64,000 nucleotides of DNA from Pseudanabaena galeata CCNP1313 (GTDB taxonomy: Bacteria; Cyanobacteriota; Cyanobacteriia; Pseudanabaenales; Pseudanabaenaceae). Where the stretch lies: the NCBI RefSeq assembly GCF_029910235.1, contig NZ_CP112875.1:62001-126000 (forward strand). Direction: 5' to 3'. This document shows positions 3,513 through 39,547 of this stretch, piece after piece. Position 1 is the stretch's first letter. Every line of letters begins with the position of its first letter. The notes beneath the pieces were generated by a model. The model was not told the DNA's origin. It did not search any database and worked only from the letters and a program-made list of their open reading frames with translations. Made by a program: the position numbers and the translations under genes.

Positions 3513-3698
3513 CTACTTCGCGCCCCGTTGCTTCACATAGGCGGTGTAGATTTTCTTAAACTCACCAATGCCAAAACCTAGCGCTTTTCGGGTTACAGAG
3601 TATTGAATTGCAAAGTTTAACGACTCGTGGCGATCTAAATAGTAGAGGGTAGAGAGTGCAGTTAATAGCTGTTTTGTGCTAAAATTATGTATATTCAT
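3513..3698 (-). CDS. Small protein coupled to the replication gene
   Basis: A 61-aa protein whose TAG stop abuts the ATG of the replication gene with no gap. It begins MNIHNFSTKQLLTALSTLYY and ends in a basic tail (YVKQRGAK). No family is recognised. Its size, basic C-terminus and position suggest a leader or regulatory partner in the rep operon, for example a copy-control or coupling peptide. That is inference. Confidence 0.5.
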   Translation of the reverse strand: MNIHNFSTKQLLTALSTLYYLDRHESLNFAIQYSVTRKALGFGIGEFKKIYTAYVKQRGAK

Positions 3699-3867
3699 TT
3701 GGCTGTAACTATTGTGGATAGTGGATTACAGCCGCTTTCAGTCTTTTGGAGAGCTTAGAGGATCGATCGCTACTTTAGCCAGCTAGACAAGCAGTTAATA
3801 AATGTGCGATCATGTAATTAATCAGTCAATTAATTCCCTTTCAGCAACTAAGTTTTGTTGAATTTTC

Positions 3868-3899
3868 GATAAATAAAGCCTTCGACCTCTTTATTTATC
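3868..3899. other. AT-rich perfect hairpin in the rep upstream region
   Basis: An 11-bp perfect inverted repeat, gataaataaag / ctttatttatc, around a 10-nt loop. It could be a weak terminator or a structural element of the rep control region. There is no T-run on either side beyond the stem itself. Confidence 0.45.
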
Positions 3900-3914
3900 A
3901 ACCAAATATCACTT

Positions 3915-3950
3915 AGCCGCCTCTAAGCTCTCCTACAAGCTTTAGGCGGC
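3915..3950 (-). terminator. Hairpin overlapping the stop of a small RHH gene
   Basis: AGCCGCCTCTAAGCT (3915-3929) pairs imperfectly with AGCTTTAGGCGGC (3938-3950) around a short loop. The right arm contains the stop codon of the 49-aa gene at 3942-4091. GC-rich stem, no long T-tract; terminator function is tentative. Confidence 0.35.
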
Positions 3951-4091
3951 ATCTTTTTGCGAAAAAATACGAGAACGGACAAATTTAGAAGGGTCTAAAT
4001 TTTCAGATTTTGCCATTTCTTTAAGTTCTTGGACTTCTTCTAAGAGTAATCGAAACTTAAAATACTTGTCGCGTTTATTTTCTTTTTTCAT
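3942..4091 (-). CDS. 49-aa ribbon-helix-helix-like protein
   Basis: A short open frame of 49 residues: a basic start (MKKENKRDKYFKF), then a predicted helix RLLLEEVQELKEMAKSENL and a second helix DPSKFVRSRIF. The pattern (strand, helix, turn with xxPSKFVR, helix) matches the C-terminal half of small RHH/MobC-like DNA-binding proteins and resembles residues 18-40 of the MobC-like protein at 30463-30858 (SSKFVRYAVF). It lies between the rep operon and a palindromic intergenic region, so it may be a plasmid copy-number or transfer repressor. No obvious Shine-Dalgarno site precedes the ATG. Confidence 0.5.
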   Translation of the reverse strand: MKKENKRDKYFKFRLLLEEVQELKEMAKSENLDPSKFVRSRIFSQKDAA

Positions 4092-4097
4092 GGGGTC

Positions 4098-4368
4098 TTT
4101 TGTTGCCTCATTTCATAATTGTATTATAAACCGAAAACCTTTACAGCGATCGCTATTTAGTGTCTTTGTTGCCACTTTCTTTTGAAAATATACTAAATGT
4201 ATTACAGTCTGTACTAGTACTTATCATGCTAGTTCACTAAAAATTTAGTTAACAGTTGTTACCCGTCCCTTTGATTTATTAAATCAAAGGGCAAGTATTT
4301 AAGCATTTCATGTTAGTTCACTCCTTTTGCGATCTTCACAGTAGTATGTTTTTTGTTGCCTCATTTCA
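4098..4368. repeat. Direct repeats flanking a palindrome in a gene-free region
   Basis: The 423-bp gap 4092-4514 carries two kinds of direct repeat. The first is TTTTGTTGCCTCATTTCA at 4098-4115 and again, identical, at 4351-4368. The second is CATGNTAGTTCACT at 4225-4238 and 4309-4322. The repeats bracket the perfect palindrome at 4267-4291, an arrangement seen at replication origins and divergent operator regions. No ORF was found in 4092-4514. Confidence 0.5.
4267..4291. promoter_or_regulatory. 25-bp perfect palindrome, operator or origin element
   Basis: CCCTTTGATTTA followed by a single T and its exact reverse complement TAAATCAAAGGG. With a 1-nt centre this cannot form a normal hairpin loop, so it is more likely a binding site for a dimeric protein. 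It is the most symmetrical element between the two minus-strand operons. Confidence 0.5.
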
Positions 4369-4514
4369 GCGTTGAGATTAAGCTATCACCTATCATCAGA
4401 AAAAGTATTAAAAGCTGTGAAATCTGTGGAAAAGTGCCTCAAACCATTGCTATGCAAAGGAATTAGCTGTGGATAAGTGTGTGGAAAAATCAGGACTTTT
4501 CCACAGGTAGTCAT

Positions 4515-5111
4515 TTATTTTTCTCCTTTGCTATTGGCGCGATTGCCACTTGGCAACCCATAAGGATCGATACCACTTTGTTTAAGCAGTGACTCAAAAT
4601 AATCACGCTCACGGCGGATATCGTCATCGATCGCAAAGCCTTCACCCAAATTAGCAAGGTCACTTTCGAGAGCCTTGATTCTTGCTGTAGTGATATCGTT
4701 GCGCTCTTGTTCAGTGCGAACCACACCAAAAGCATTATCAAACCTACGCTCTAGAGATTCAGTAGCAAGGGCAATCAACAGTGAAAAAGCCTGTTTGTTA
4801 CCGCGATAGCACTGGTATACCCAATAGATAACCACGACCTCTAGAGGTAAAGCTCTAAAACGACTTTGCCCTCTAACTTGAGTAGATTCTGACTCAATCT
4901 CGACAAATTTCCCGTCCGTATAACCTTCACCGCTTAAGCGTTTGAAGGTCTTAGACGCTAAAAAATCCCGTGCGTTAAATTCTTCTTTTCCGACAGTTTC
5001 AGCCGCCTGTGTCTGAGACATACGGTAACTACCGTCAGGCAACATATAGCCATCGACATTTAACGCCCCGATCGCCACAGTAGCGCGGGTTGCTTTGATA
5101 GATTCACTCAT
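4515..5111 (-). CDS. Cyanobacterial plasmid protein of unknown function
   Basis: A 198-aa protein of a type often seen on cyanobacterial plasmids and hence recognisable, but without an assigned function. The first 60 residues contain a conserved stretch (VDGYMLPDGSYRMSQTQAAE) reminiscent of the start of phage antirepressor or KilA-N-like proteins. A second conserved block follows (RGQSRFRALPLEVVVIYW, then RGNKQAFSLLIALATESLERRFDNAF). The C-terminus (about 130-198) is predicted coiled coil and charged. It overlaps the preceding RHH gene by ATGA, so the two form an operon. A role in plasmid gene regulation is a guess. Confidence 0.65.
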   Translation of the reverse strand: MSESIKATRATVAIGALNVDGYMLPDGSYRMSQTQAAETVGKEEFNARDFLASKTFKRLSGEGYTDGKFVEIESESTQVRGQSRFRALPLEVVVIYWVYQCYRGNKQAFSLLIALATESLERRFDNAFGVVRTEQERNDITTARIKALESDLANLGEGFAIDDDIRRERDYFESLLKQSGIDPYGLPSGNRANSKGEK

Positions 5112-5269
5112 GACTTCTTGCCTTTAGTGCGATCTTTTTGATACTCCTCTAACCAATCACTAACAATTTTGGCAAGTTGACCAGAAAGCGATCTCTTTTC
5201 TTTATCAGCAATCTCCTCTAATAATTTGTGCTGTTTGTCATCAACCGTGACAGCTAATCGTTTTGGCAT
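5108..5269 (-). CDS. Ribbon-helix-helix DNA-binding protein
   Basis: From the internal ATG at 5269 this encodes 53 aa beginning MPKRLAVTVDDKQHKLLEEI, the usual start of CopG/Arc-type proteins. It has one strand (KRLAVTVD) and two helices (KQHKLLEEIADKEKRS and LSGQLAKIVSDWLEEYQ). An upstream ATG at 5299 would add ten residues that do not fit the family. The stop overlaps the ATG of the next gene (ATGA), giving a two-gene minus-strand operon. It probably binds its own promoter region and may regulate the downstream gene. Confidence 0.7.
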   Translation of the reverse strand: MPKRLAVTVDDKQHKLLEEIADKEKRSLSGQLAKIVSDWLEEYQKDRTKGKKS

Positions 5270-5436
5270 TTCTAAACATTTTGTAGCAGTTTGAAACATA
5301 TTAAACCCTTTACTGTGTAGTAGTTTGCTGCATTTTGCTACACATAGGTTATCATCAAAAACAGCAAAAGCGATCGCACTGCCTCGAAAACACAGCGATC
5401 GCCTTTGTACCCATTGTTCAAATAGGTAAATTAATT

Positions 5437-5709
5437 ATGGCAGCAAAACCAGCTAAACAGGCTACAGCACCCGATCTAGTAGTGCAAAGCGCCGCCCCTC
5501 TCATCACTGACATAAATCTCGAAGATGCGATCGCCGATCAACTTTTAGATTCAGTGGACTGGCAGAAGGTCAAACAGGCATTACTCAAAAAAGCACCCGC
5601 ACGGCTTTTTAAATGGTTTCAATCTCAGATATTGCCTACCGATGGCTCTCCCATGATTACCAATGAGATCGAAGCAATGGCAGTCAGTGAGGGTGCTACC
5701 GATGCTTAA
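5437..5709 (+). CDS. Small hypothetical protein, first gene of a plus-strand operon
   Basis: A 90-aa protein. The ATG at 5437 (MAAKPAKQ) is chosen over an upstream ATG at 5335, because the extra 34 residues run through HIP1 sites and look non-coding. The body is helical (EDAIADQLLDSVDWQKVKQALLKKAPARLFKWFQSQI). No family is recognised. Its 3' end overlaps the next gene, and the four plus-strand genes 5437-7608 look like one transcription unit ending with the ATPase. Confidence 0.55.
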   Translation: MAAKPAKQATAPDLVVQSAAPLITDINLEDAIADQLLDSVDWQKVKQALLKKAPARLFKWFQSQILPTDGSPMITNEIEAMAVSEGATDA

Positions 5710-5932
5710 AATCATCAGCACCAAACCCCGCGCCTATCGAGTGAAGCGTAGAGCAGCCAAGCTTAAAAAACGATTTTCAGCCTTTAACAATGTCGTCATA
5801 GCGATCGCTTTCCTATCAGTTGCCATAGCAATACCCTTGCTGTTAATCGCATCTCCCTTTGTGCTGTGCGCTGTGGGATTACTCCTAATTGCTAACTCTT
5901 GCAACGAAATGAGGGTTAGTGAATATGATTAA
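5702..5932 (+). CDS. Small two-helix membrane protein
   Basis: A 76-aa protein from ATG 5702 (overlapping the preceding stop), with GAGGG placed about 11 nt upstream. A basic N-terminus (KPRAYRVKRRAAKLKKRF) is followed by two hydrophobic segments (VVIAIAFLSVAIAIPLLL and SPFVLCAVGLLLIAN). It is likely an inner-membrane protein. Position in front of a membrane-anchored DNA translocase suggests a transfer or plasmid-surface role; this is inferred. Confidence 0.55.
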   Translation: MLKIISTKPRAYRVKRRAAKLKKRFSAFNNVVIAIAFLSVAIAIPLLLIASPFVLCAVGLLLIANSCNEMRVSEYD

Positions 5933-6233
5933 AACCTTTATCGCCACTGGGTTTACTTGCCTAGCTATTGGCAGTATCGCGGGTTATTTCATCAGCGAAT
6001 TAACTCGACAACCTCAAAACCTACAAGCTCAAACCACACCCGCCGCCGCCCCTGCTATTCCTAAACCAACTCGCAAGGAACTAGAGGATCGGTACATTAA
6101 GGCTCTAAGCGGGTATCGCCTCACTATCGACACAAAGGAGTTAAAAGTCTTTACGGATAGACAGCTTAACGATGAAGTCTACAGGTTAGAAAGCTTACTG
6201 AGAGCAGGAAAAGCATACACACCGCCCGATTAA
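5925..6233 (+). CDS. Membrane-anchored protein with a helical C-terminus
   Basis: Starting at ATG 5925 (a GTG at 5919 is the alternative; GAGG lies at 5911-5914), 102 aa. One N-terminal membrane segment (FIATGFTCLAIGSIAGYFI), a proline/alanine linker (residues about 35-50), then a charged helical domain (RKELEDRYIKALSGYRL through VYRLESLLRAGKAY). It overlaps the upstream gene by 8 nt and is followed by a terminator. No family recognised. Confidence 0.55.
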   Translation: MIKTFIATGFTCLAIGSIAGYFISELTRQPQNLQAQTTPAAAPAIPKPTRKELEDRYIKALSGYRLTIDTKELKVFTDRQLNDEVYRLESLLRAGKAYTPPD

Positions 6234-6257
6234 CTCTCAATCATTTAACTAACATTA

Positions 6258-6281
6258 ACCGCTAATCTCTAGCGGTTTTTT
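6258..6281 (+). terminator. Rho-independent terminator
   Basis: ACCGCTA and TAGCGGT pair around a 5-nt loop and are followed by a T-run. It lies between the 102-aa gene and the ATPase gene, so the ATPase may have its own promoter or be expressed by read-through. Confidence 0.75.
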
Positions 6282-6297
6282 ACTAACAATAATCATC

Positions 6298-7608
6298 ATG
6301 ACAAACTTTACCCGCGACACCTTCCACAATTCCCAGATACTGCTCTCAGACAAGGTTATACGCTATGCCTCATGGTCAAGTCATATCATTTATGGCTGTG
6401 CGATCGCCTCATGCTTGGCTACCTTCATCCCGTCTCACATATCCCAGAAATTAATTAACGTGGCGATCGCACCCGTACTATTTGCAGTCAGTAATCGACT
6501 AGATCGGCTTGCCTTGTATGCCAGTGGATACGGTTCGATTAGTGAAGCTCAAAGCCATAAAGGTTATGCACAGTGGCTAGATGCAAGTTTACAGCCGCCC
6601 CGTAGAGAAGTAGCGATCGCACAGCCACTAGCACCAATCGACACACCCGCGCCCGTCAAGTTTGCTGATGTGAAGCAAGCCCTATCAAAACCTCACTGTA
6701 TGCTCTTAGGTTCTACAGGAGACGGTAAAAGCACCCTAGCCAAGCATCTTGCAGCAAATTGCACAGCATACACAATCGTTATCGATCCTCACGCCGCCCC
6801 TGATGATTGGGGAAACTTGCCTGTATTTGGTGCATCTCGAAACTATGGTGAAATTGCTGAAATTATGGGAGTAATTCTAGAGTTGATGCAACGCCGCTAT
6901 GATGCAAGGTCAAAGGGTGCTAAGGCTTTTGAGCCAATCGTCATAATTTGTGATGAGTACCCCGCGATTATTGCCAGTTTAGAAGCGGGTAAGGTTGCCT
7001 CTAGTTGGATGAAATTGATATCTAGAGAGGCTCGTAAAGTTTCTTTAAGGCTCGTAGTCCTGACTCAATCACCAGAAGTTAAGGCGATCGGTTTAGAGGG
7101 GGAAGGATCGGTTAGAGATAATTTTTGCTTTATCCGATTAGGTGAGTTTGCGCTGGATCATGCCAAGTCACTGAAGGATGAACAAATTAAATCAGCAATC
7201 GAAAATGCCGATCGCCCCGCAATGCTTGGTAACTTGCCTTGTGTTATCCCACAACTAAGCGATCGCGTAGCTATGCCCGTCCTATCAATGCCAAGTGATT
7301 ACGCATTGCTGACAAATTCTATTGCTGACACTCTACAGCCTAGTTTTGAGGCAATAGACACACCGTCAACCCTTGTCAGCACGTCAGCACAATCGAAATT
7401 GTCAGCACCGCTAGAGGCGATTTTAGAGTATGCCCAAAAGCAAAATGATTTTGTGTCAGCACGAAAAATTCAAAGCTCTATCAGACTTTTTCGCGATACA
7501 CCCGCGCCCGAAATTAGACAATATTTTCAATGGCTTGCAGACAAAGGTTATGGCATTGTGAGAGGTTCTGATGATGCTCTAGAGTTTTATTTTGTGAAAT
7601 GTTTGTGA
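6298..7608 (+). CDS. FtsK/VirD4-like membrane-anchored DNA-translocating ATPase
   Basis: A 436-aa P-loop ATPase. Residues 25-65 hold two hydrophobic segments, giving the N-terminal membrane anchor usual for coupling proteins. Walker A is GSTGDGKST (residues 138-146), Walker B is VIICDE (215-220), and a sensor-like LVVLTQS follows (about residue 253-259). The C-terminal 100 residues resemble a winged-helix region. The layout fits HerA/FtsK-type translocases and small type IV coupling proteins. It sits directly before the oriT-like element at 7681-7830, which supports a role in presenting plasmid DNA for transfer. It is shorter than canonical TraD/VirD4, so the transfer role is inferred. Confidence 0.7.
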   Translation: MTNFTRDTFHNSQILLSDKVIRYASWSSHIIYGCAIASCLATFIPSHISQKLINVAIAPVLFAVSNRLDRLALYASGYGSISEAQSHKGYAQWLDASLQPPRREVAIAQPLAPIDTPAPVKFADVKQALSKPHCMLLGSTGDGKSTLAKHLAANCTAYTIVIDPHAAPDDWGNLPVFGASRNYGEIAEIMGVILELMQRRYDARSKGAKAFEPIVIICDEYPAIIASLEAGKVASSWMKLISREARKVSLRLVVLTQSPEVKAIGLEGEGSVRDNFCFIRLGEFALDHAKSLKDEQIKSAIENADRPAMLGNLPCVIPQLSDRVAMPVLSMPSDYALLTNSIADTLQPSFEAIDTPSTLVSTSAQSKLSAPLEAILEYAQKQNDFVSARKIQSSIRLFRDTPAPEIRQYFQWLADKGYGIVRGSDDALEFYFVKCL

Positions 7609-7680
7609 CGTATTTTTATTTTTGCCATAACAAGTTTGTGCGGTTTTACACTGTTCTTGTATTTTTCGGTAACGCGCTAA

Positions 7681-7830
7681 CAACGAGTTTGCGTCATTTG
7701 AGGTATGTGTAAAAATCTCGGCAAGCTATGTTGCTTGTCGGACAAGAAATCGCACTAACGCTTGATTTTTATCCAACAGCAACATGACGCTTGCCAAAAG
7801 GGGACACCCCCTTTGGATACCCCCGCGCAA
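7681..7830 (-). other. oriT-like element, copy 1 (inverted relative to copy 2)
   Basis: This gene-free stretch (7609-7942) contains a sequence whose reverse complement closely matches 31060-31215 next to the relaxase and mobC genes. The shared core is an imperfect long inverted repeat: arms of about 32 nt beginning GCAAGC and containing ATGTTGCT, around a loop of 10-12 nt. It is flanked on one side by a C/G-rich hairpin and on the other by CCTCAAANGRCGCAAACTCGTT. The C/G-rich flank is less symmetrical here than in copy 2. No relaxase lies nearby. Confidence 0.65.
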
Positions 7831-7942
7831 ACTTGGTAATAACTTGGTACGAATAAAATTATTTTTATTCCAAGCTGATTTTTTTCTGTTAAAAAAGTAC
7901 CAACAAAGTGAGACGATAAGACCAGCTAAACAAATTTAGACA

Positions 7943-9328
7943 ATGGCTAAAAATTACCAAGAGCTTATAAAACGTTGGGAGCAGATCCCAAAAGTTTATC
8001 CAGAAGCATCACTAGAATCCGATCTTATTTCAGTTATTTTTGCGTCATTGGGGCTGAAATTCGATCAAATAGAAACTACACCTCAGATTGGGCAAGGTCT
8101 TAAACCAGACAGATTAGTGTATTCAGACGCTGACAAAACAAAGCCGCCTGTATTGGTTTTTGAAAATAAAAGGCGTGTGCAAAATTTGGCAGATGCGACA
8201 GATGAAGAATTTTTTAAACTCTGTAAACAACATCCTTTGTATCGAGAATCAGTAGGCTATAAAGACAAACCGAATAATAACGGCATTAAACAATATCTTG
8301 ATAAAGATGTAGTCTCTCCCGAAAAACTGGCAACTTTTGGCTTAGTGTTCAATGGTGATTTTTTTCAACTATGGCGGCGTGTCGATGGCTTGGTAATGCC
8401 TCTAAGCGATATCCAAAGATTTAAGGCAGAGAGTATCCCTAAGCTAATGCAACAGCTTGAATACTGCTTAAGAAATCCCCGTAGAGCCTTAGTTACATCA
8501 GTCTGGAACCAAAAGGGCGGCGTATCCAAAACTACTAACACGATAAATTTAGGAGCCGCTTTAGCTGATGCTGGGAAAAAAGTCTTATTAATCGATCTTG
8601 ATGAACAAACTGATTTAACAATCGGAGTCGGTCTAAATCCAGATCACTTTAATCACTGGATAGAAGATTGTGTTGATAATGTTGATAAAAATAAACTTGA
8701 TGAGGCTAAAAAAATCCTCTCAGAAGCTATTCAACATCGAGTCTTTCCCACAACAGAGCGTACACAGTTAAAAATATCTGTACTTCCTATTGGTTCTGAC
8801 TCTCTAGCTAAATTTAGGGATAGAAAAGATATTAAGCAGATCCAAAGTTTTAAGAAAATCATTCAAATACTTGTATCTGAATTTGACTACATCTTTATAG
8901 ACACGTCCCCTGCTGCTGATAGTCTTACTAGATGTGTGTTATATAGCAGTGACACTACTTTGATACCTATAGACTACGGTAAAAAGTCAATCCATCATGG
9001 TGTCAATACTTATCATCAACTTTCTAAAGTTAGGAGTAACAGATCTCAAGTTGAAAAAATCCATTTAGGCACATGGAATTTAGGGCTAGTTTTCAGTAAT
9101 GTCCCTCCAGATAGCGGCGCTACCTTAGATAAATTTATTGATGAAGAGCTTAAAAAGAAAGGCTTTTCAGGTCACAAGTGTACAACTGTAGTCAAAACCT
9201 ATGCACAGACAAAAATTGCAGAATTTAAGCATATGCCCGTTGTTTGTTGGTCAAATTCTCCTGTGACAAAATGCTATAAAAATCTTGCTGAAGAGATTTT
9301 TTTAAAACATAACTTTATAGATGACTAA
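7943..9328 (+). CDS. ParA-type ATPase fused to an N-terminal restriction-nuclease-like domain
   Basis: A 461-aa two-domain protein. Residues 1-165 resemble the N-terminal nuclease domain of type I restriction subunits (HSDR_N). They show an early acidic helix (ASLESDLISVIF), PD at 55-56, FENK at 73-76 (the E-x-K of a PD-(D/E)xK site) and GLVFNGDFFQLWRR at 133-146. Residues 182-461 are a ParA/MinD ATPase with a deviant Walker A (KGGVSKTT, 191-198) and LLIDLDEQ. It is followed after 3 nt by a ParB-like gene, forming a partition-style pair. The nuclease motif looks complete. Whether it cuts DNA, and when, is unknown. The upstream gap holds oriT copy 1 and no clear ribosome site. Confidence 0.7.
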   Translation: MAKNYQELIKRWEQIPKVYPEASLESDLISVIFASLGLKFDQIETTPQIGQGLKPDRLVYSDADKTKPPVLVFENKRRVQNLADATDEEFFKLCKQHPLYRESVGYKDKPNNNGIKQYLDKDVVSPEKLATFGLVFNGDFFQLWRRVDGLVMPLSDIQRFKAESIPKLMQQLEYCLRNPRRALVTSVWNQKGGVSKTTNTINLGAALADAGKKVLLIDLDEQTDLTIGVGLNPDHFNHWIEDCVDNVDKNKLDEAKKILSEAIQHRVFPTTERTQLKISVLPIGSDSLAKFRDRKDIKQIQSFKKIIQILVSEFDYIFIDTSPAADSLTRCVLYSSDTTLIPIDYGKKSIHHGVNTYHQLSKVRSNRSQVEKIHLGTWNLGLVFSNVPPDSGATLDKFIDEELKKKGFSGHKCTTVVKTYAQTKIAEFKHMPVVCWSNSPVTKCYKNLAEEIFLKHNFIDD

Positions 9329-9331
9329 GCT

Positions 9332-9871
9332 ATGCCAATTGTTGAAGAGCTATCACTAAACGAATTAGAGCTAGGGGAGATCCTACGGATTCCCAGTGAA
9401 TTTGTTGAAACAAATTCTAAAGTCAAGTTAAACGCGACTTTAGTAAAAAGTCTTGCAAATAAACTTAAAGCTTCTAACAAAAATATTCTGCCAATCATAG
9501 TTAAGCAGATATCTGAAGATGAATATGAAGCGATATATAACACGCTGATTCTAGAAGCTGCAAAGCAAGCAGGGCTAGATTTTGTTTGGTGTATCGCTGT
9601 CGATGACAAAATGGAGACTCAGATCCTTGCTGAAACTGGAGAGTTATTCCAAGTGTCTCTACTAGACTCATCAGAAAAAGAGATTATCGAAGGTCTAACT
9701 TTTGCCAGAGACACAGAGACAGCGCTCAAAAAACTAGACCCCGCAAAAGTTGCAAAGGTTATTGTGTCTGCTAGAACCCCATCTTGGAAGGATCTAAAGC
9801 CTCTATCAAAACTCAAGTGTGGGGTAGGGGCTAAAGCCGTTCCAGTATTGTCTAAGTATTTTATTTTCTAG
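9332..9871 (+). CDS. Small ParB-like partner protein
   Basis: A 179-aa protein 3 nt after the nuclease-ParA gene. The N-terminal half resembles a ParB/Srx-type domain: LSLNELELGEILRIPSEFV, then ILPIIVKQISEDEYEAIYN and a short strand FVWCIAVDD. The C-terminal half is helical, with TFARDTETALKKLDPAKVAK and a basic region. No HTH of the usual ParB kind is obvious, so its DNA recognition may differ. Spacing and order suggest that it is the CBP/adaptor for the fused ParA upstream. A strong bidirectional terminator follows. Confidence 0.55.
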   Translation: MPIVEELSLNELELGEILRIPSEFVETNSKVKLNATLVKSLANKLKASNKNILPIIVKQISEDEYEAIYNTLILEAAKQAGLDFVWCIAVDDKMETQILAETGELFQVSLLDSSEKEIIEGLTFARDTETALKKLDPAKVAKVIVSARTPSWKDLKPLSKLKCGVGAKAVPVLSKYFIF

Positions 9872-9902
9872 ATAAGCAAGCGCAGCGATCGCTACTGCAA
9901 GC

Positions 9903-9938
9903 AAAAAGCACCCTAACCAATTGGTTAGGGTGCTTTTT
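9903..9938. terminator. Perfect 36-bp palindromic terminator
   Basis: AAAAAGCACCCTAACCAA is followed directly by its exact reverse complement. A-rich and T-rich ends make it usable in both directions. Degenerate relatives sharing AAAAGCACCC lie at 11107-11144 and 12235-12270, so this is a small local repeat family. Confidence 0.8.
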
Positions 9939-10006
9939 GGTTCAGACAAGTATAGTTAGCCCCCTAGGGTACGTTCTTAGCACATAACCCCTATGGCAGT
10001 AACGAT

Positions 10007-10045
10007 CAACTGCAATCGGACTTCTTAGCAGTCCGATTGCAGTTG
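10007..10045. terminator. GC-containing 16-bp hairpin after the RHH partition gene
   Basis: CAACTGCAATCGGACT pairs perfectly with AGTCCGATTGCAGTTG around a 7-nt loop. It lies 9 nt beyond the stop of the minus-strand gene at 10054. There is no T-tract, so it may be a factor-dependent terminator or an mRNA-stabilising hairpin. Confidence 0.55.
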
Positions 10046-10053
10046 CAAGACTT

Positions 10054-10305
10054 TTACAACTTGCCTTTACGTTTTAGCTCGTTGACGGCTGCATCAATTA
10101 ACCAAGTATTGCGACTCGTTTTTTTAAACCCTTCACCCCGATCTATATCGATAATATCTATCAGTTCAGAAGGTATCCTTACCTCAAATTTAACTACCGT
10201 TTTCTCGACTGGTTTAGGCTCAATCGCAGGTGTATCCACAGTAGGAACTACCGCCCCTTGTCCTAAAAATTCATCTTCAGTCTTTGGTTTTGTTCTTAAA
10301 GCCAT
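10054..10305 (-). CDS. RHH-type partition partner (ParG-like)
   Basis: An 83-aa protein. The first 40 residues are flexible and proline-rich. The remainder is a ribbon-helix-helix domain: strand KFEVRIPSE, helix LIDIIDIDRGEGF, turn and helix TSRNTWLIDAAVNELKRKG. An unstructured N-terminus plus an RHH domain behind a short ParA is the type Ib (ParF/ParG-like) partition pattern. The gene follows parA after a 54-nt gap that itself contains AGTACTA/ATACTA motifs. It probably binds those motifs as centromere and operator. Confidence 0.65.
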   Translation of the reverse strand: MALRTKPKTEDEFLGQGAVVPTVDTPAIEPKPVEKTVVKFEVRIPSELIDIIDIDRGEGFKKTSRNTWLIDAAVNELKRKGKL

Positions 10306-10359
10306 AGTACTAATATCCTGTTATCACAATATCGAAACAATACTAAAACAATATAAAAA

Positions 10360-11001
10360 TCATACTAAATAGATACTATTATACAAAGCTTCTATTTCTG
10401 CGATCGCCTTATCATCTCTAGGTTTTAACTCAGTCACAGATAAACCAGACGATGCAGCATTGCGAAAAGCTTTACGGTTGCCTAATGGGGTATCTTGAAA
10501 GGTCAAGTTATCCATACCTGAAACAATTTCGGCTGCATCAGCATTATCTTTACCGCTTGCATCTGCCATATTCAAAATACAAATCGCTTTCAAATTTTCG
10601 TTAAAGCCTTTTGCATCAGCTACCAAAGTATTTGTATCTTCGATCGCCCATAGGTCAAAGCTGCTCGGTCTAAATGGTGCGATATAAACATCAGCGATGA
10701 GCATAGCTGCTCTTTGTGCGACGGTATCTTGTCCACCAACATCGATGATCACATCATCATGTTTTTTACCCAGTCTCTCGACATCAGTTTTTACAGCCTT
10801 ACCAGATAAGCGAATCGTGGTATAGCCCGATCCGCTTGGTAAAGTCTCATCTCTGACAGCACTAAAACTAGAAGCCGTTCCTTGTGCATCAGCATCAACT
10901 AGCAAAACATCCTTACCTGATAGCGATCGCATCACAGCTAAGTTAGTAGCTACAGTGGTTTTACCCACCCCGCCCTTAATACCGCCACAGACTAAAATCA
11001 T
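10360..11001 (-). CDS. parA: ParA-type plasmid partition ATPase (type Ib)
   Basis: A 213-aa Walker-type partition ATPase. Deviant Walker A KGGVGKTT (residues 9-16), then VLLVDADAQGTAS (32-44) and DDVIIDVGGQDT (about 81-92). The short length without an N-terminal HTH is the ParF class. It pairs with the RHH protein downstream on the same strand. The region upstream (11002-11066) carries repeated AGTACTA and ATACT motifs, which are likely the centromere and operator. This is the second ParA on this stretch, beside the nuclease-fused one at 7943. Confidence 0.8.
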   Translation of the reverse strand: MILVCGGIKGGVGKTTVATNLAVMRSLSGKDVLLVDADAQGTASSFSAVRDETLPSGSGYTTIRLSGKAVKTDVERLGKKHDDVIIDVGGQDTVAQRAAMLIADVYIAPFRPSSFDLWAIEDTNTLVADAKGFNENLKAICILNMADASGKDNADAAEIVSGMDNLTFQDTPLGNRKAFRNAASSGLSVTELKPRDDKAIAEIEALYNSIYLV

Positions 11002-11066
11002 ATGTTTTCAGTACTAAAATTGTATTAGAACAGTATCAGAATACTCTGAGAATAGTACTATCATTT
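11002..11066. promoter_or_regulatory. Candidate centromere/operator of the parA operon
   Basis: AGTACTA occurs at 11010-11016 and 11054-11060, with related CAGTATCAGAATACT between. A third AGTACTA lies at 10306-10312 in the gap between parA and its RHH partner. Clustered short motifs on both sides of a type Ib parA are typical binding sites of the RHH protein. Inferred from position and repetition only. Confidence 0.45.
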
Positions 11067-11106
11067 CGGTCAATAAATACTGATTTAATATGAAAATCAT
11101 TTAGAT

Positions 11107-11144
11107 AAAAAGCACCCACCCGAATATAGGTGAAATGCTTTTTT
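11107..11144. terminator. Bidirectional terminator-like hairpin
   Basis: AAAAGCA and CACC pair with GGTG and TGCTTTT around a short loop, with a 1-2 nt interruption. It shares AAAAGCACCC with the palindrome at 9903. Confidence 0.5.
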
Positions 11145-11191
11145 GTTTAAATGATATTGTTGTGATTATAAAAATTTAGTAATAAGCACTT

Positions 11192-11953
11192 ATGGCGATC
11201 ATCTCATGCCCCGAATGTGGTAGACAGGTATCCGATAAAGCTCTCAAATGTCCACAGTGCGCTCATCCTATTGCAAATCTTGAAAATCAAGAAATAACCG
11301 CTTTACAAGTATTACAAGACAAAATTCAGGATGTGGTGAGTGTTAATAGTCTTACGGTAAAGGTTAGCCCTGTTGGAAAATCTCTAAATATTAAGCTGAC
11401 TCGAACAGGGATAAAAATCATCAAACCTGCTTACGATCAACTATGGATAAAGATTAGATTGCAACTCAAACCAGACAATCTAAGAGGTTTTAATAAGTTG
11501 CTAATTGCTTCTAATTTTGAAGGGGATATTAAATCTGAATGGGAGCGTCAAAACGATATTGACTCTACAGGGAAACTAATCCCTAATCAGCAAGATCTGA
11601 TTTTGGCTTATGTCAACGTGGCGATTGTTGTGATTGTCGGTATAGGCGGCACTTTCTACTTCTTTAATCCCTTTCGTAGTGTGCCAAGTAGTTCTAGTTC
11701 ATTTACTAGCCCTATCATCAGTTCTAGCTCTAATCGCTACACAATGGCAAATTACAACCAAATTAATACTGGTATGACCTATTCACAAGTTAAAACGATT
11801 TTGGGTGATAGCGGTAAAGAACTAAGTCGAGTAGATATCAAAGGAGCGCCCCTTACAATTAGCTATCAATGGCAAAACGATGATGGGTCTAACATTATTG
11901 TTATGTTTCAGGATGATGCTGTTACGACTAAAGCACAGGCTTTACTGAAATAG
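11192..11953 (+). CDS. Zinc-ribbon membrane protein with a DUF3862/SmpA-like domain
   Basis: A 253-aa protein in three parts. Residues 1-30 form a zinc ribbon (CPECG and CPQC). A cytoplasmic part of about 115 residues follows. One membrane segment (VNVAIVVIVGIGGTFYFF, about 141-158) leads to a serine-rich linker and a C-terminal domain beginning YNQINTGMTYSQVKTILGDSG. That domain matches the DUF3862/BLIP-like fold, related to the SmpA/OmlA lipoprotein domain. Such proteins are thought to sense or scaffold at the membrane; no specific function is known here. It is transcribed away from parA. Confidence 0.6.
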   Translation: MAIISCPECGRQVSDKALKCPQCAHPIANLENQEITALQVLQDKIQDVVSVNSLTVKVSPVGKSLNIKLTRTGIKIIKPAYDQLWIKIRLQLKPDNLRGFNKLLIASNFEGDIKSEWERQNDIDSTGKLIPNQQDLILAYVNVAIVVIVGIGGTFYFFNPFRSVPSSSSSFTSPIISSSSNRYTMANYNQINTGMTYSQVKTILGDSGKELSRVDIKGAPLTISYQWQNDDGSNIIVMFQDDAVTTKAQALLK

Positions 11954-12014
11954 CGATCGCTACAAATTAAAAAATTCAATCATTTGCGTAATGGTTACTT
12001 ACACCTAAAGATTT

Positions 12015-12194
12015 ATGGGAAAGCAAAAGTCAAAAGTCAGCCCTGCGGCGATCGCATTAGTTGTCATACTTGCATTAGTTTTTGTGGGTATTACTGCAAA
12101 AGTTTTGACAGATAGGTTCGCCCCTAGCTCTGTAACTACAGATTTAGATGAGCTAGAAAAAAAGCTTGACAACATCAAGAAAAGCCCAAAATAG
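12015..12194 (+). CDS. 59-aa single-pass membrane protein
   Basis: Basic start (MGKQKSKVSP), a hydrophobic segment (AAIALVVILALVFVGI), then a short charged tail ending DELEKKLDNIKKSPK. It lies 61 nt after the zinc-ribbon gene on the same strand. No family recognised. Confidence 0.5.
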   Translation: MGKQKSKVSPAAIALVVILALVFVGITAKVLTDRFAPSSVTTDLDELEKKLDNIKKSPK

Positions 12195-12234
12195 AAACAA
12201 GTCACCATAAAACAAGGCGATCGCCACTGGCAAC

Positions 12235-12270
12235 AAAAAAGCACCCTAGCCAATCGGTTAAGGTTGCCTT
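12235..12270. repeat. Degenerate copy of the 9903 palindrome
   Basis: AAAAAAGCACCCTAGCCAAT followed by CGGTTAAGGTTGCCTT keeps the outline of the perfect palindrome at 9903-9938 with several changes. It probably still forms a weak hairpin after the 59-aa gene. Confidence 0.4.
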
Positions 12271-12294
12271 ATGTTTTACATAGTCATACATTTG

Positions 12295-12558
12295 TCAGAC
12301 TTCTATTAATCCATAATCTGACAAAACATCAGCGCTGATATCAGTAGCCAAATTACATATTAAGCAGTTCCTTAAATCAGTTTCTAAACCCTCTAAATAC
12401 TCTCTAGGATTACCATTTAGCCAATAGTCATCTAATGTCTTACAGGATTGTTTTACAAGCATAGGATTTTGAGCGCTGTAGACTTTTGCGCTCTCCCTAT
12501 TCCTTAATGCTTGGCTAACCATCTGCCAGCCAAGCACCTTAACCAGAATCTCGATCAT
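12295..12558 (-). CDS. Hypothetical protein downstream of the resolvase
   Basis: An 87-aa protein, MIEILVKVLGWQMVSQALRN..., with a Cys pair (NCLIC) near the C-terminus. No family recognised. Its ATG overlaps the resolvase stop by one base (TAATG), so it belonged to the resolvase operon and probably lost its original promoter when the transposon inserted upstream. Confidence 0.5.
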   Translation of the reverse strand: MIEILVKVLGWQMVSQALRNRESAKVYSAQNPMLVKQSCKTLDDYWLNGNPREYLEGLETDLRNCLICNLATDISADVLSDYGLIEV

Positions 12559-13200
12559 TAGGCAACCTCACGATTAATAACACGGCTTACCTGTACTGCT
12601 TGCCACTTACCGCCCCGCTTGGTTTTAATGCCTTGTTCATTGAGTTCATTAGCGATCGCAGTCAGTGTAAAACCATCGTCTGACATTTGTTTTACAAATG
12701 CAATAACCTCTAACTCACTGGCAACCTTAACCAATTGCTTGTTAACCATCTCGTAACCGTAAGCGGGTGATCCAACGTGTTCACCTTGCGATTGTTTTTG
12801 ACGTAAAGCTGTAGAAGTTCTTTCACCGATCGCCTCTCTCTCCCATTGTGCTACTGACATCAAAACATTTAGACACAACCGCCCCGCCGCCGTTCTTGTA
12901 TCGATCTGGTCACTGACTGAGAGCAAAGCCTTATCGGTAAAGTAATTTTTAATCAGGTAGTTCCAGTCGGATACATCGCGGGTGAGTCTATCTAACTTGA
13001 AAATAATCACCGCGTCTGCTTCATCACTGTCTAACATTTGTAAAACATTTGTAAGACCATCACGTTTTAAGGACTTGGCAGATACACCCGCGTCAATGAT
13101 TACATCAAGTAAAACAATGTCATACAAATCTGCATAAGCTCTAATCTTGCTTATTTGAGCATCAACACTGTAACCATGATCGGCTTGCTCTTGTGTCGAA
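12558..13200 (-). pseudogene. Serine recombinase (resolvase) truncated at its N-terminus by a transposon
   Basis: The open frame continues in the 5' direction past the TTG at 13127 to the transposon edge at 13200. It reads STQEQADHGYSVDAQ... and then RAYADLYDIVLLDVIIDAGVSAKSLKRDGL, the standard serine-recombinase N-terminal fold. The usual start, including the Arg-Val of RVST, is missing: the Tn3-type inverted repeat begins exactly before the Ser codon. The rest (catalytic helices, FKLDRLTRD, EREAIGERTS, recombinase domain and C-terminal HTH) is intact for about 200 residues. It is probably inactive unless a start is supplied from the transposon. Confidence 0.8.
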
Positions 13201-13250: not shown

Positions 13251-13730
13251 TTACCCAGACGAGCTTTGAGAAATCAGTTTAGACTTATAGGGAGAACCAC
13301 AAAAAGGACAGAAGTGATGCTTGAGCGAAGAAATAGTTTGCTGGCAATGAGTACAGCGATCGCCAAGTTTCCCCCCACAGAGAAAGCAAAACTTAGCCCT
13401 GACATCCATCCACATAGGATCAGCAGGATTGCCAGGAGTCCAGCAAGATGGACAGAACTTAAGCATAGAAACAGGCTCAATGGAAGTACCACGAGAAACA
13501 GCCTCTAAATATTCCACGGGAACTTGCAAAGCCGAAGCCAAACCAGTTTTACTATGAGAACTCAGCTTAGCCGTCAGTCCCCGTTCAATCTTGCCCAAAC
13601 TCTGCAAATGAATCGACGAAATCGCCGCCAACTCCCTCTGATTCAAACCGAGGGAAATTCGGATACGTTTGACATAGGCAGCCAAGGTTTCACCAGAGTT
13701 AGGCGATTTATCACCCTGTAAAATATTCAC
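13251..13730 (-). CDS. XRE-family HTH protein with zinc ribbons (transposon-borne)
   Basis: A 159-aa protein. Residues 12-75 form an XRE/Cro HTH (LAAYVKRIRISLGLNQRELA... then HLQSLGKIERGL). The C-terminal half carries four Cys pairs (CPSC, CFLC, CTHC, CPFC) that probably bind zinc. A homologue with the same domain order sits at 39548-40018 in the other Tn3-type element. It is divergently transcribed from the tyrosine recombinase gene, over an 81-bp gap. It likely represses or regulates the transposon genes. Confidence 0.75.
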   Translation of the reverse strand: MNILQGDKSPNSGETLAAYVKRIRISLGLNQRELAAISSIHLQSLGKIERGLTAKLSSHSKTGLASALQVPVEYLEAVSRGTSIEPVSMLKFCPSCWTPGNPADPMWMDVRAKFCFLCGGKLGDRCTHCQQTISSLKHHFCPFCGSPYKSKLISQSSSG

Positions 13731-13811
13731 AAAATAGTGTTTAAAAGTATGTTTATAGAAAACTATACTATCAACAGATTATATAACTCACCGCATTAAC
13801 TAGCTGATAAA

Positions 13812-14720
13812 TTGACTATCACACTAGCTACAGTTACCACTGAATTCCTAGAGCGTACAGGACTAGCCCAAAGCACCGTGCAATCCTACGAACTAAGCCT
13901 AATGCCACTACTCAAAGAATATGGCAGTTATCCCATTGAATTATTGAGTCGAGCAACCCTAACAAAATACCTAGAAGGCTTAACAGATCTCGCCTATACG
14001 ACCCATCACCGTCACCAAGCCATCCTCCAAGCCCTATTCAACTTTGCCGTAGAGCGCGGTTATCTAAAAGCCAACCCCATCGTCCGACTGCATCGGCGCA
14101 AACCAAACCCAGAGAAAGGAGAACATCATGCCGATGGAGTAATTCGATACCTATCGCCCGAACAGATCGTCAGTCTCTACCAAGTCGTAGAACGCGACGG
14201 TCGCATGAAAGCATTGGTCTGCTTGCTGCATCGCACAGGAGCGAGGATCGCGGAAATCCTGAGCTTGCAATTAGCAGAAATCAACCTCAAAGAACGTAAA
14301 TTTCAAGTGATCGGCAAAGGCAATAAAACCCGATGGTGTTTCTACAGCGAAGATGCGGCAACCGGATTAGAAAAATATCTAAAATACTATCGACACAAGG
14401 AATCACCAGCCTTATTCACCACCCAACAGCCTGTGACGGAGAAAGTTACCCCCTTGAGTTATCAGACAGCCCATCGTGACTGGACAAAATTAACTAAGAA
14501 TGACCCAAAACTCCAAGGTATCAGAATGCACGACCTCCGTCACACCTTTGCCACCGAGAGAGTTGGCTTAATGGGTATCGAAGAATTACGCGCCTTAATG
14601 GGACATACAAATATCAACACCACCTTACGCTATCAAAAAGTTACTTCTGAACGAGCAGAGATAACTGCTCACAAAGCTTTAAATCAACTGCTCCAAAACT
14701 CAGAAAACAGCCAAACTTAA
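13812..14720 (+). CDS. tnpI: Tyrosine recombinase of the Tn3-type element (TnpI-like)
   Basis: A 302-aa phage-integrase family protein with a TTG start. An N-terminal SAM-like core-binding domain (residues 1-95) is followed by the catalytic domain: Arg in TGARIAEIL, Lys region in VIGKGNKTRW, HDLRHTFATERVG (His-x-x-Arg), GHTNINTTLRYQ (His and the Tyr nucleophile). All catalytic residues are present. In Tn4430-type elements the cointegrate is resolved by such a recombinase in place of a serine resolvase. The corresponding site is probably the dyad at 14777-14795. Confidence 0.85.
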   Translation: MTITLATVTTEFLERTGLAQSTVQSYELSLMPLLKEYGSYPIELLSRATLTKYLEGLTDLAYTTHHRHQAILQALFNFAVERGYLKANPIVRLHRRKPNPEKGEHHADGVIRYLSPEQIVSLYQVVERDGRMKALVCLLHRTGARIAEILSLQLAEINLKERKFQVIGKGNKTRWCFYSEDAATGLEKYLKYYRHKESPALFTTQQPVTEKVTPLSYQTAHRDWTKLTKNDPKLQGIRMHDLRHTFATERVGLMGIEELRALMGHTNINTTLRYQKVTSERAEITAHKALNQLLQNSENSQT

Positions 14721-14776
14721 ATATTGATTAAATCCCATTCATAGATTGTTTAAAAGGGTGTTTATTCAAAATTGAT

Positions 14777-14795
14777 AGAGTATTGGTTATACTCT
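14777..14795. other. Candidate cointegrate resolution core site of Tn 1
   Basis: AGAGTAT, 5-bp spacer TGGTT, ATACTCT. The same dyad, with a different spacer and one end change, occurs at 38493-38511 at the equivalent place between tnpI and tnpA in the second transposon. Two inverted 7-bp arms around a 5-bp spacer are the expected shape of a tyrosine recombinase core site. Confidence 0.6.
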
Positions 14796-17264
14796 GTCTA
14801 CGCAAACTGAGTGTTCCTACAGCCAGCACTAGCTTACTTGTCCTCTAAACGTCTCTATGACTGCTATTGAACGCACGGCTTATCCTCGATTCAAATCTCA
14901 AGCAACCGTGAAAGAACTTGCTGAACTATATACTCCGTCAGCATCTGAGATAAATCTAGCGAAGGGTCATGTCAAAAGTAAGCGGGGGTTACTGCGATTT
15001 TTAGTCATGCTCAAGTCATTTCAACGATTGGGATATTTCCCACTGTCATCCGATGTACCGCCCACAGTGATCAGTCATATTCGGGCTTGCTTAAACCTCA
15101 GTGCTAATATCTGTGCTATCCCGCCCGAACGTTCTCGTTACTACTATGCTGAGGCGATTCGGGCTTATTTGAGAGTTAGTCCTTTCGACCGCAAGGCGCA
15201 AACGGCGATCGCTACTGTCATTGCTACATCGGCGGAGATCATGGAATATCCTGCTGATTTAATCAATGTTGCGGTTGAAGAGTTGGTGAAAGCGCGTTAT
15301 GAATTACCTGCTTTTAGTACGATTGATCGTTTGGTCGGTCATATCCGTGCTGTTGTGAATAACCGCTTGTTTCAGCGTATTGCTAAGGCGATGAGTCCAA
15401 ATCAACAAGCCTTTGTGGATGAATTGGTCTCTAATTCAACGCCAGAATCGGAATTAACTTTCAGCTTATTGAGAGCAGCACCGAAAAGTGATCGCCTCTC
15501 TCATATTCAGGCTTTACAAACTAAGTTTGACCAAATACTTACTTTTGGTGATGCAAGGCAGTTGCTGCTGAAAATTGCCCCTGCCAAGGTCAAATCTTTT
15601 GCAGCACAAGCAAAAGCCTTGGCAATGACAGATCTCCGAGAGATGAATCTAGCGAAACGTCGCGCTCTGTTGGTATGCCTGCTCTATCGTGTGCAAGTTA
15701 AAACCCGTGACCATTTAGTAGAGATGTTTCTCAAGCGCGTGCAGAAAATGCATCAATGTGCCAAAGATAAATTGGTGGAGTTACGAGAACAGAATTTGAC
15801 CAAAACTGAATCGATGTTGGCAGTGCTAACCGAGATTTTACAGACATCAACTGGGGAGACTGATACGGCGAGTTTGGGTGGACGGGTGCAATCTGTTTTG
15901 GAAACCCATGGGGGAGCTGCCGCTTTATTAGCACAGTGCGAGGAGATTACGGCTTACAATACCGATAATTATTTGCCTTTAATATGGCGGTTTTATAGTC
16001 GCTATCGTTCGGTTTTGTTTCCCTTGGTGCGTGGGTTAGAAATCCAGTCTGCTAGCCAAGATCTTTCCTTGACGGCAGCTTTGACTCTGGTTTTGGCTCA
16101 TGAAAACCGTCGCTCTAAATGGTTGTCTGCGGAAGATCTCGATTTAAGCTTTATGAGCGATCGCTGGCGACGATTAGTGGTGGTTGAATCTGATGGTATT
16201 TCACAGTTAGTCCGTCAGCAATTCGAGGTCTGTGTCTTTACCTATTTGGCAGCCGAGTTGAAAAGTGGTGATGCTTGTGTGGTGGGTTCGGAAAACTATG
16301 CTGACTTCCGCGAACAGTTATTGTCTTGGGATGAGTGTCAGCCAAAATTGGCTGATTACTGCCAACAAACAGGTATGGCGCTTACGGCGGCTAAATTTGT
16401 TGAACAGCTTCAATCTTGTTTGACTCAAACTGCGATTGCTGTAGACCAAATCTGTAAGGATGGTACACAAGTGACGATTAGTGCTGATGCTGTACCTGTA
16501 CTCAAAAGGATTACGGCGGAGCCGCCTCCATCGGGTGCGATAGAGTTGGAGTCGGCAATTTTACAACGGCTCCCTGAACGTAGTGTTTTGGATATTCTCT
16601 GTAATGTGGAACATTGGCTCAATTGGGTGCGCCACTTTGGTCATGTTTCTGGTTCTGAGTCAAAGATTGAGAATCCGTCTGAACGTTATATCTTAACGGT
16701 GTTTGGCTATGGTTGTAATCTTGGTCCTAATCAAACTGCTCGTCATACTCGCGGACAGGTCAGTTCAAGGATGCTGGCTTATGTGAATCGTCAACATATT
16801 TCGATTCCTCAACTTGAGGCGGCGATGCGAGATTTGATTAATGCTTATAATCGCTTGGAGTTACCGAAGTGTTGGGGAACTGGCAAACGGGCGGCGGCTG
16901 ATGGTAGTAAGTTTCAGCTTTATGAGAATAATTTAATGTCTGAGTATCACATTCGTTATGGTGGCTATGGGGGGATTGCTTACCATCATGTATCTGATAC
17001 TTATATTGCTCTGTTTACCCATTTCATCAATTGTGGTGTTTGGGAAGCAGTTTATATTCTTGATGGTTTACTCAAGAATACTTCCGATATCCAACCTGAT
17101 ACTTTGCACGCTGATACCCAAGGACAGTCTACTACTGTGTTTGGCTTGTCTTATCTGTTGGGAATTAAACTCATGCCTCGGATTCGTAACTGGCAGGACT
17201 GTAAGTTCTTTCGTCCCAGTCTGGACTCTGTTTATGAGTATATTGACCCATTGTTTAAAGATGT

Positions 17265-38421: not shown

Positions 38422-38492
38422 TAAATTAGGCGATTACCGCCGATTTTCGGTAACACAAACGTTAATTAGCGTTAGGCTCACTTTCCTATTTG

Positions 38493-38511
38493 AGAGTATT
38501 AATTATACTCC
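38493..38511. other. Candidate cointegrate resolution core site of Tn 2
   Basis: AGAGTAT, 5-bp spacer TAATT, ATACTCC; counterpart of 14777-14795 in Tn 1. Located in the 132-bp gap between the recombinase gene and tnpA. Confidence 0.6.
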
Positions 38512-38553
38512 TAGCTCAAACCACTTGTAGATTAATAAGGTGCTTAACAATTC

Positions 38554-39465: not shown

Positions 39466-39547
39466 ATACTACCTCCATCAGTCTAAACTTAAGGATAAGA
39501 TTATTTTAAAAGTATATTTCTTTATTGATACTTTAATCTAGACTTAT

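Follow-up and report, generated by a model that had tools for sequence, protein, structure and literature searches.

A ParA-type ATPase with an N-terminal nuclease-fold domain and its ParB-fold partner in Pseudanabaena galeata and other cyanobacteria

What would a DNA partition ATPase do with a nuclease? The question is raised by two adjacent genes in a stretch of 64,000 nucleotides from Pseudanabaena galeata CCNP1313 (contig NZ_CP112875.1, positions 62,001 to 126,000), hereafter the window. The first is an open reading frame (ORF) of 461 amino acids (7943..9328, + strand) in which a nuclease-fold domain precedes a complete ParA ATPase. Three bases further on lies an ORF of 179 amino acids (9332..9871, +) for a ParB-fold partner that has no recognisable helix-turn-helix (HTH) and matches ParB_N with E=0.0033, below the curated cut-off. 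ParA ATPases are familiar as movers of plasmids, chromosomes and organelles; they are not known to cleave DNA. In the open-licence literature searched, no paper turned up that names both HSDR_N and ParA, and broader searches met no title or opening of an abstract dealing with the fused architecture. Judged from sequence comparison, the window genes are not a single oddity; they represent a family of pairs on cyanobacterial chromosomes and plasmids. We tentatively propose, at somewhat less than an even chance, that the pair is a two-gene module in which a ParA-nuclease gated by ATP and by its ParB-fold partner serves DNA surveillance or replicon exclusion.

A nuclease fold in front of a ParA ATPase

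Residues 1-178 (7943..8476, +) are, on the strength of their predicted structure, a PD-(D/E)XK nuclease-fold domain resembling those of HsdR and type IIG enzymes (PMC1913061 deals with PD-(D/E)XK families). The AlphaFold (AF2) model, built with 20 sequences from the window and related loci as input, has a mean predicted local distance difference test score (pLDDT) of 94.7 and comprises a helix (21-35), strands at 43-45, 57-59 and 71-75, further helices and a strand at 132-136. Its best structural matches are BpuSI (Z 11.7 over 142 residues, root-mean-square deviation 3.4), DrdV (Z 11.3, two entries) and the VvHsdR fragment (Z 9.3). These four best rows are nuclease enzymes aligned over their nuclease domains, and they are the only ones that clearly stand out because mitoribosomal protein rows reach Z 8.5 against the same model. 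A plain Foldseek search with the model returned nothing at E<=0.001 (BpuSI 0.0024, HsdR fragment 0.0074). The fold shared with the HsdR N-domain (EcoR124I 2w00, V. vulnificus 3h1t) and with the type IIG enzymes (BpuSI 3s1s, DrdV 7lo5) covers most of residues 4-178 (Z 11.7 to 8.1) and includes the PD...ExK arrangement. In those enzymes, however, the nuclease is followed by a helicase motor or a methyltransferase, whereas here it is followed by ParA, and the pair contains no modification subunit.

At the level of sequence, the link to restriction enzymes runs through relatives of the window protein. The sub-families of the fusion are here named types: type I is the window's own; the search for types II and III was confined to genomes of this phylum and to plasmids. 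The window protein itself matches neither HSDR_N nor HSDR_N_2 of Pfam (its sole match is MmeI_N, E=0.021), and searches of PDB sequences with the N-domain profile gave nothing credible. When 65 N-domains were scanned singly against Pfam (E<=0.01), 39 matched HSDR_N_2 and 29 matched HSDR_N; the type III locus L003 reaches 30.3 bits for HSDR_N_2 against a cut-off of 25. Profile comparison connects the N-domains of types I and II (E 2.6e-20) and those of types II and III (1.8e-10), and more weakly those of types I and III (7.4e-6, probability 84%). An unrelated partner profile, used as a control, scored 0.2% probability. It is this predicted fold and chain of profiles that place an HSDR_N-like nuclease region where a first-pass annotation of the DNA had seen one, though without an HSDR_N match in the window protein itself; a non-nuclease fold, the possibility raised there against it, is not what the model predicts.

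The annotation had correctly named D56 (the D of PD, codon 8108..8110, +), E74 and K76 (ExK; codons E74-N75-K76, 8162..8170, +). On grounds of conservation, E21 (8003..8005, +), a putative metal ligand in the first helix, joins the same set. All four residues are present in 24/26 type I, 30/31 type II and 30/30 type III sequences, so that the close homologues, where missing catalytic residues had been sought as a sign against a nuclease, largely keep them. Position by position, type I has E21, E74 and K76 in 26/26 and D56 in 24/26. Made non-redundant at 90%, the intact sites number 21/22, 26/27 and 28/28, or 75/77 in total; the plain counts still include near-duplicates (L017/L030, L018/L037, L012/L050). 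The exceptions are two Mastigocoleus sequences (L033 and L034), in which D56 has become N or K, and the type II sequence L067, which has lost D and K. Rows dropped before counting were L014 (the same protein as L010), L016 and L019 (split by IS-like genes, that is, genes like those of insertion sequences) and L001, L043 and L073 (which duplicate the loci of the window, L002 and L003). L057, which lacks the N-terminal part, was left out, and L032, whose ATPase ORF is broken (360 amino acids), was counted for its N-domain. The figures for types II and III rest on 32 and 30 analysed loci, the remaining matched genomes not having been aligned.

Across the 65 N-domains, conservation amounts to 100% for E21, 97% for D56, 100% for E74 and 98% for K76. 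The eight most conserved of the 178 columns are E74, E21, N137, G133, L119, K76, Y118 and D56; G133 and N137 belong to the block GLVFNGDFFQLWRR (residues 133-146). In what we take to be the QxxxY motif of HsdR-type nucleases, the Q position is G in 26/26 type I sequences and the Y is kept in 26/26. The closest relative of the fused ATPase, 92% identical, is encoded by plasmid ABRG53g of Pseudanabaena sp. ABRG5-3. For this one sequence pair, the ratio of non-synonymous to synonymous substitution rates (dN/dS) is 0.068 in the N-domain and 0.106 in the ParA part; that of the partner is not meaningful because the ABRG53g partner leaves the frame at about residue 128. It appears from these patterns that the active site is catalytically preserved, beyond chance conservation and under purifying selection. 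The fused nuclease would be expected to cleave DNA.

The ParA part (residues 179-461, 8477..9328 with the stop codon, +) matches AAA_31 over residues 184-364 (6e-30), and its best PDB sequence relatives are Soj/ParA proteins (3.3e-13). The translation contains the deviant Walker A motif KGGVSKTT with both lysines (residues 191-198, 8513..8536, +), Walker A' (DLDEQTDLT) and Walker B (YIFID). K191, K196, T197 and T198 are kept in 26/26 type I sequences. By sequence, the ParA half is complete and its ATP site intact, as the annotation had said.

The adjoining ParB-fold partner

The partner is predicted to have the ParB CTPase fold. Its model (pLDDT 84.3, predicted template modelling score 0.59) derives from only 14 sequences, and the five models span pLDDT 84.3 to 60.0. 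Residues 15-106 (9374..9649, +) match the ParB of M. xanthus (7bnk) with Z 12.4 over 89 residues and PadC (6ryk) with Z 10.9. PadC and other ParB-CTPase-fold fusions likewise combine this fold with non-canonical extra parts. A GERR-like box (G[ED]R[RK], residues 41-130) was found in 0/57 partners; GERRxRA is the nucleotide-phosphate box of canonical ParB. No HTH family is among the 22 Pfam families matched by the 57 partners, which is still compatible with a diverged HTH and agrees with the earlier description of a ParB-like partner without a typical one.

The C-terminal part (residues 112-179, 9665..9868, +) is modelled as helices without a firm fold match, the ParB rows aligning up to residue 106 only. 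Among the 57 partners (Pfam, E<=0.01), ParB_N is matched by 35, Rho_N by 19, SAP by 8, HeH by 5, HHH_6 by 4 and HHH_3 by 3. The window's own partner matches neither HHH_3 nor HHH_6, which occur in related partners only; its tail is possibly a helix-hairpin-helix-like DNA-binding domain, by a reading of the alignment that has no statistical support. In the partners of L022, L024 and L038 the C-terminal domain is apparently duplicated in tandem (about 265 amino acids vs 180).

The pairing itself is regular. A partner adjoins the ATPase in 22/26 type I loci, the window included (two are cut by contig ends, and two, L033 and L034, have none), in 31/32 type II loci (absent in L053) and in 29/30 type III loci (one lies at a contig end), the partner profiles used for this check having been built from those same partners. 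Type I ParABS systems likewise encode a ParA Walker A ATPase and a ParB-fold protein side by side. Unlike in ParABS, the ParA carries a nuclease domain here, the partner has no recognisable HTH or GERR box, and no parS-like repeats were seen. According to Kaljevic et al. (2025; PMC12704722), a DUF3850 fusion is the only ParB-fold fusion whose gene consistently adjoins parA; Rho, SAP and helix-hairpin-helix do not occur as whole words in their main text.

Distribution and genomic setting

The window's genome holds two more pairs, of type II (L002) and type III (L003), on a contig of 4.93 Mb. A profile search for the fusion in other genomes, which the annotation had suggested, found type I in 6 of 386 genomes of the phylum (E<=1e-30). 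At E<=1e-20, 46 genomes matched type II, some of them through type I copies alone, and 76 matched type III, a count to which matches to ParA only contribute. In one of the six type I genomes, IS-like genes interrupt the pair, both in its nuclease part and in its partner (L016 and L019, on a 3.06-Mb contig). A scan of genome contigs gave 19 type I loci, all cyanobacterial, and four non-cyanobacterial loci that match the ParA part only. Among six partial matches from other bacteria, L145-L147 were rejected as members of the family, their N-termini being HTH-like when read by eye, as were L144 and L148, which read as plain ParAs; in L143, none of the ORFs matches the type II query. Among 72,556 plasmid records, a coverage of at least 80% of the query was reached in 4/1451 matched records for type I and 6/3165 for type II, all cyanobacterial, and for type III in 0 of 5000 among the matches listed. 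The type I profile found no relative in viral_contigs, and none of 78 matched phage records exceeded 80% of the query. The family is wider than the plasmid link drawn at first: of the loci mapped, with long contigs preferred, 11/16 of type II and 13/14 of type III lie on contigs >2 Mb. When the type II locus was compared with three congeneric genomes to look for an empty site, all matches were short and scattered.

In a tree of the ParA parts, types I and II each form one clade (97 each) and are joined to one another with support 99; the base of type III is not resolved. This was a quick tree without bootstrap, made from 81 chosen rows, with a long-branch warning and an outgroup that does not form one group. 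Seven ParAs without the N-domain fall inside type III, which requires 5 changes, 3 of them forced by well-supported branches. Around six of the seven, tblastn found no N-domain in the fetched stretches. The seventh (L110) and a fused ParA form a tandem in which a single partner gene is shared by both (3560-6943, -). Five of the seven have an adjoining partner; L107 has none in its stretch. Since these five keep the partner, the core of ParA and partner is able to last without a nuclease. Most simply, the tree would reflect repeated loss of the nuclease, with ParA and its partner retained. At L108, a type III ParA (5774-7345, -) carries a piece of an Upf1/Dna2-like helicase as its N-terminus, not a nuclease (phmmer 4e-18), and has an adjoining partner. 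The same locus holds a further nuclease-ParA and partner pair (9083-11152, -), apparently of another sub-type, with the ATPase in two overlapping ORFs.

The window's contig (225,631 bp) is apparently a plasmid; it is taken as such because the closest relative of the fused ATPase sits on plasmid ABRG53g, the genome consisting of six contigs of which the largest is that of 4.93 Mb. Its replication protein is of the CyRepA1 type (138.6 bits vs a curated cut-off of 200; PMC10899382 deals with cyanobacterial Rep proteins). The two plasmids have a common block of small genes before the pair, and their replication proteins are only 25% identical in the matched part. With its ATPase at 92% and the other genes of the block at 25-83%, the pair is the best conserved. 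Window positions 7875-9737 align with ABRG53g 10713-12574 at 89.6% (blastn). The alignment includes a non-coding stretch 5' of the pair (7875..7942), probably an operator or leader. The partner ORF of ABRG53g (L009 12170-12574) runs out of frame from about residue 128, near the record end, through an assembly error or a real break. In the window, a 44-bp near-perfect palindrome (9899..9942; 22-nt arms, 95% complementary) follows the partner and is terminator-like by eye. It was not among the matches of a consensus terminator scan, in which the + strand likewise gave no promoter-like site. The nearby flanks (7600-7960 and 9860-10120) contain no iteron-like direct repeats.

A second, ordinary ParA had also been noticed close by. 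It is an ORF of 213 amino acids (10360..11001, -; NF041546, 151 bits, below the cut-off of 180), which together with a small ORF of 83 amino acids downstream (10054..10305, -) makes an ordinary-looking plasmid partition pair (10054-11001). The window plasmid thus has at least two further ParA systems, this one and locus L005. A search of plasmid ORFs with 23 ParA, ParB, ParM and ParG queries gave the fused ParA as the sole match on ABRG53g (12.6 kb) and on pLBA (77.8 kb), while three plasmids of Nostoc UHCC 0870 with type I or II pairs, from which some of the queries were taken, also encode ordinary ParA, ParB and ParM. pLBA (NZ_AP014639.1; L011, L149, L150) encodes a terminase family protein and contains several genes of great length; on account of the annotated terminase it may be a phage-plasmid.

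The neighbours of the pairs were scanned for defence genes (87/129 ORFs of 15 type II loci and 87/104 of 11 type I loci, the scan not including type III neighbours or a random control) and are mostly ordinary genes. No PADLOC model matched along the pair. There were only short matches of ParA parts to PDC-M28B (window, 22.7 bits over 35 residues; L002 and L003, 30.1 and 31.6 bits over 44-45 residues), and none of partners. In the window's genome, the type II pair (L123 512-9983) comes after genes for a Mod-type methyltransferase (EcoP15I Mod, 8.3e-14), a protein that is PLD-like by eye only, having no PDB relative, and a UvrD/PcrA-like helicase (1.7e-11). This set resembles a defence cluster, by which defence is neither proved nor excluded. 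Elsewhere in the window are two tandem, very long ORFs with nearly identical N-termini (57437-60334 and 60460-63171, +) and two similar units (13251-17268 and 35440-40018), each with a large transposase-like, a tyrosine-recombinase-like and an HTH-like gene, as read by eye.

What the pair may be for

We infer the dimer switch, the target and the purpose of the module as follows. ATP-bound ParA would form its usual dimer on DNA, by which two nuclease domains would be brought together. Bound to both ParA and DNA, the partner would set the place and duration of this state by triggering ATP hydrolysis, and cutting would ensue when the complex meets DNA not normally cleared by it. A helical, probably non-specific DNA-binding tail would have replaced the partner's sequence-reading HTH, and the nuclease would sit atop a ParA-partner core able to persist without it. 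The likely use would be ParA-driven surveillance of DNA or exclusion of replicons, employed by plasmids against rival DNA and kept by chromosomes for the same end. As an analogy of mechanism only, this pair, Wadjet and type I restriction would share the logic of cutting foreign or plasmid DNA under the control of an ATPase. The motors of the latter two are SMC or superfamily 2 (SF2) proteins; ParA is neither, and no homology is claimed.

Surveillance or exclusion is favoured by the nuclease fold, the 75/77 intact sites and purifying selection, by the ParA motifs and the regular pairing with a ParB-fold protein, and by the Rho_N, SAP and HHH-type matches in some related partners. The patchy occurrence of the three types (6, 46 and 76 genomes out of 386), the plasmids on which a pair accompanies ordinary ParA, ParB and ParM, and the position of the type II pair after the methyltransferase and helicase genes point the same way. 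Several observations weigh against it. The nuclease domain is absent from seven type III ParAs, five of them with an adjoining partner; the fused ParA is the sole partition ATPase found on ABRG53g and pLBA, which fits plain maintenance; and among the 174 proteins scanned around type I and II loci no general tie to defence genes emerged, the PADLOC matches (E<=1e-10) being scattered, with one to three members per family among the matches listed. Rather unlikely in our judgement, though the closest contender, is a role in replicon maintenance, in which the pair acts as a ParABS-like partition system and the nuclease as a helper that cuts or resolves DNA during segregation, or in cis at a centromere, and not as a weapon. 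The ParA and ParB-fold pairing of all three types, the lone partition homologues of ABRG53g and pLBA, the high conservation of the pair within the ABRG53g block and the nuclease-less forms would all suit such a role, and the lone homologues and the five nuclease-less pairs weaken the suggestion of the annotation that normal segregation may not be its task. A partition role is less easily reconciled with a partner that lacks a recognisable HTH and GERR box, with the lack of parS-like repeats next to the pair in the window (a site further away, or a lone one, would be compatible), with the many chromosomal loci of types II and III and with the ordinary ParA systems of the window plasmid and the three Nostoc plasmids. 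The parts fit both exclusion of rival DNA and help in maintenance, and we leave the choice between them undecided.

Other explanations carry less weight. Type Ia ParAs bind their operator through an N-terminal HTH domain, and the nuclease fold, which occupies the same position, might be a DNA-binding or autoregulatory domain in its place that does not cut; the HTH-like N-termini of L145-L147, read by eye, would be in keeping with this. A pure DNA-binding domain, however, need not keep E74 and K76, and the eight best conserved columns include all four catalytic positions, so that we consider non-cutting improbable. A little more improbable still is a toxin-antitoxin or post-segregational killing system with the nuclease as toxin and the ParB-like partner as its restraint, an addiction function that the annotation had also entertained. 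The two Mastigocoleus sequences, which lack both D56 and the partner, are as expected if an active nuclease is tolerated only with its partner. The type II case L053/L139 points the other way, with an intact site and no partner within its 15-kb stretch (a single case, the search covering that stretch), as does L067, which keeps its partner beside a broken site; moreover, the partner is a folded ParB-like protein and not a typical labile antitoxin. Least of all do we expect a role like that of McdAB with carboxysomes, in which the pair would place some cargo other than DNA and the nuclease would be incidental. Many cargos are positioned by ATPases of the ParA family (PMC10241942), and the chromosomal type III loci and nuclease-less forms would be in line with this. 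The ParB fold of the partner, the DNA-binding-type matches in its relatives and the active site kept in 75/77 argue against it.

If surveillance or exclusion is the task, the pair could represent a new class of cyanobacterial DNA-targeting module, in which a restriction-type nuclease is directed at rival plasmids or phage genomes by a nucleoid-surfing pair of the ParA/ParB type rather than by a helicase or SMC motor; a partition or positioning core would have gained the nuclease arm and sometimes discarded it. This broader view we regard as doubtful. Were the ParA cycle coupled to the nuclease, DNA segregation would be linked with restriction, which would offer a new principle of plasmid exclusion or defence. 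The fusion family would also explain cyanobacterial genes whose present annotation is just 'AAA family ATPase' or 'ParA family protein'. Because nuclease-plus and nuclease-minus forms occur naturally in one clade, the question of what a partition ATPase does with a nuclease is directly testable.

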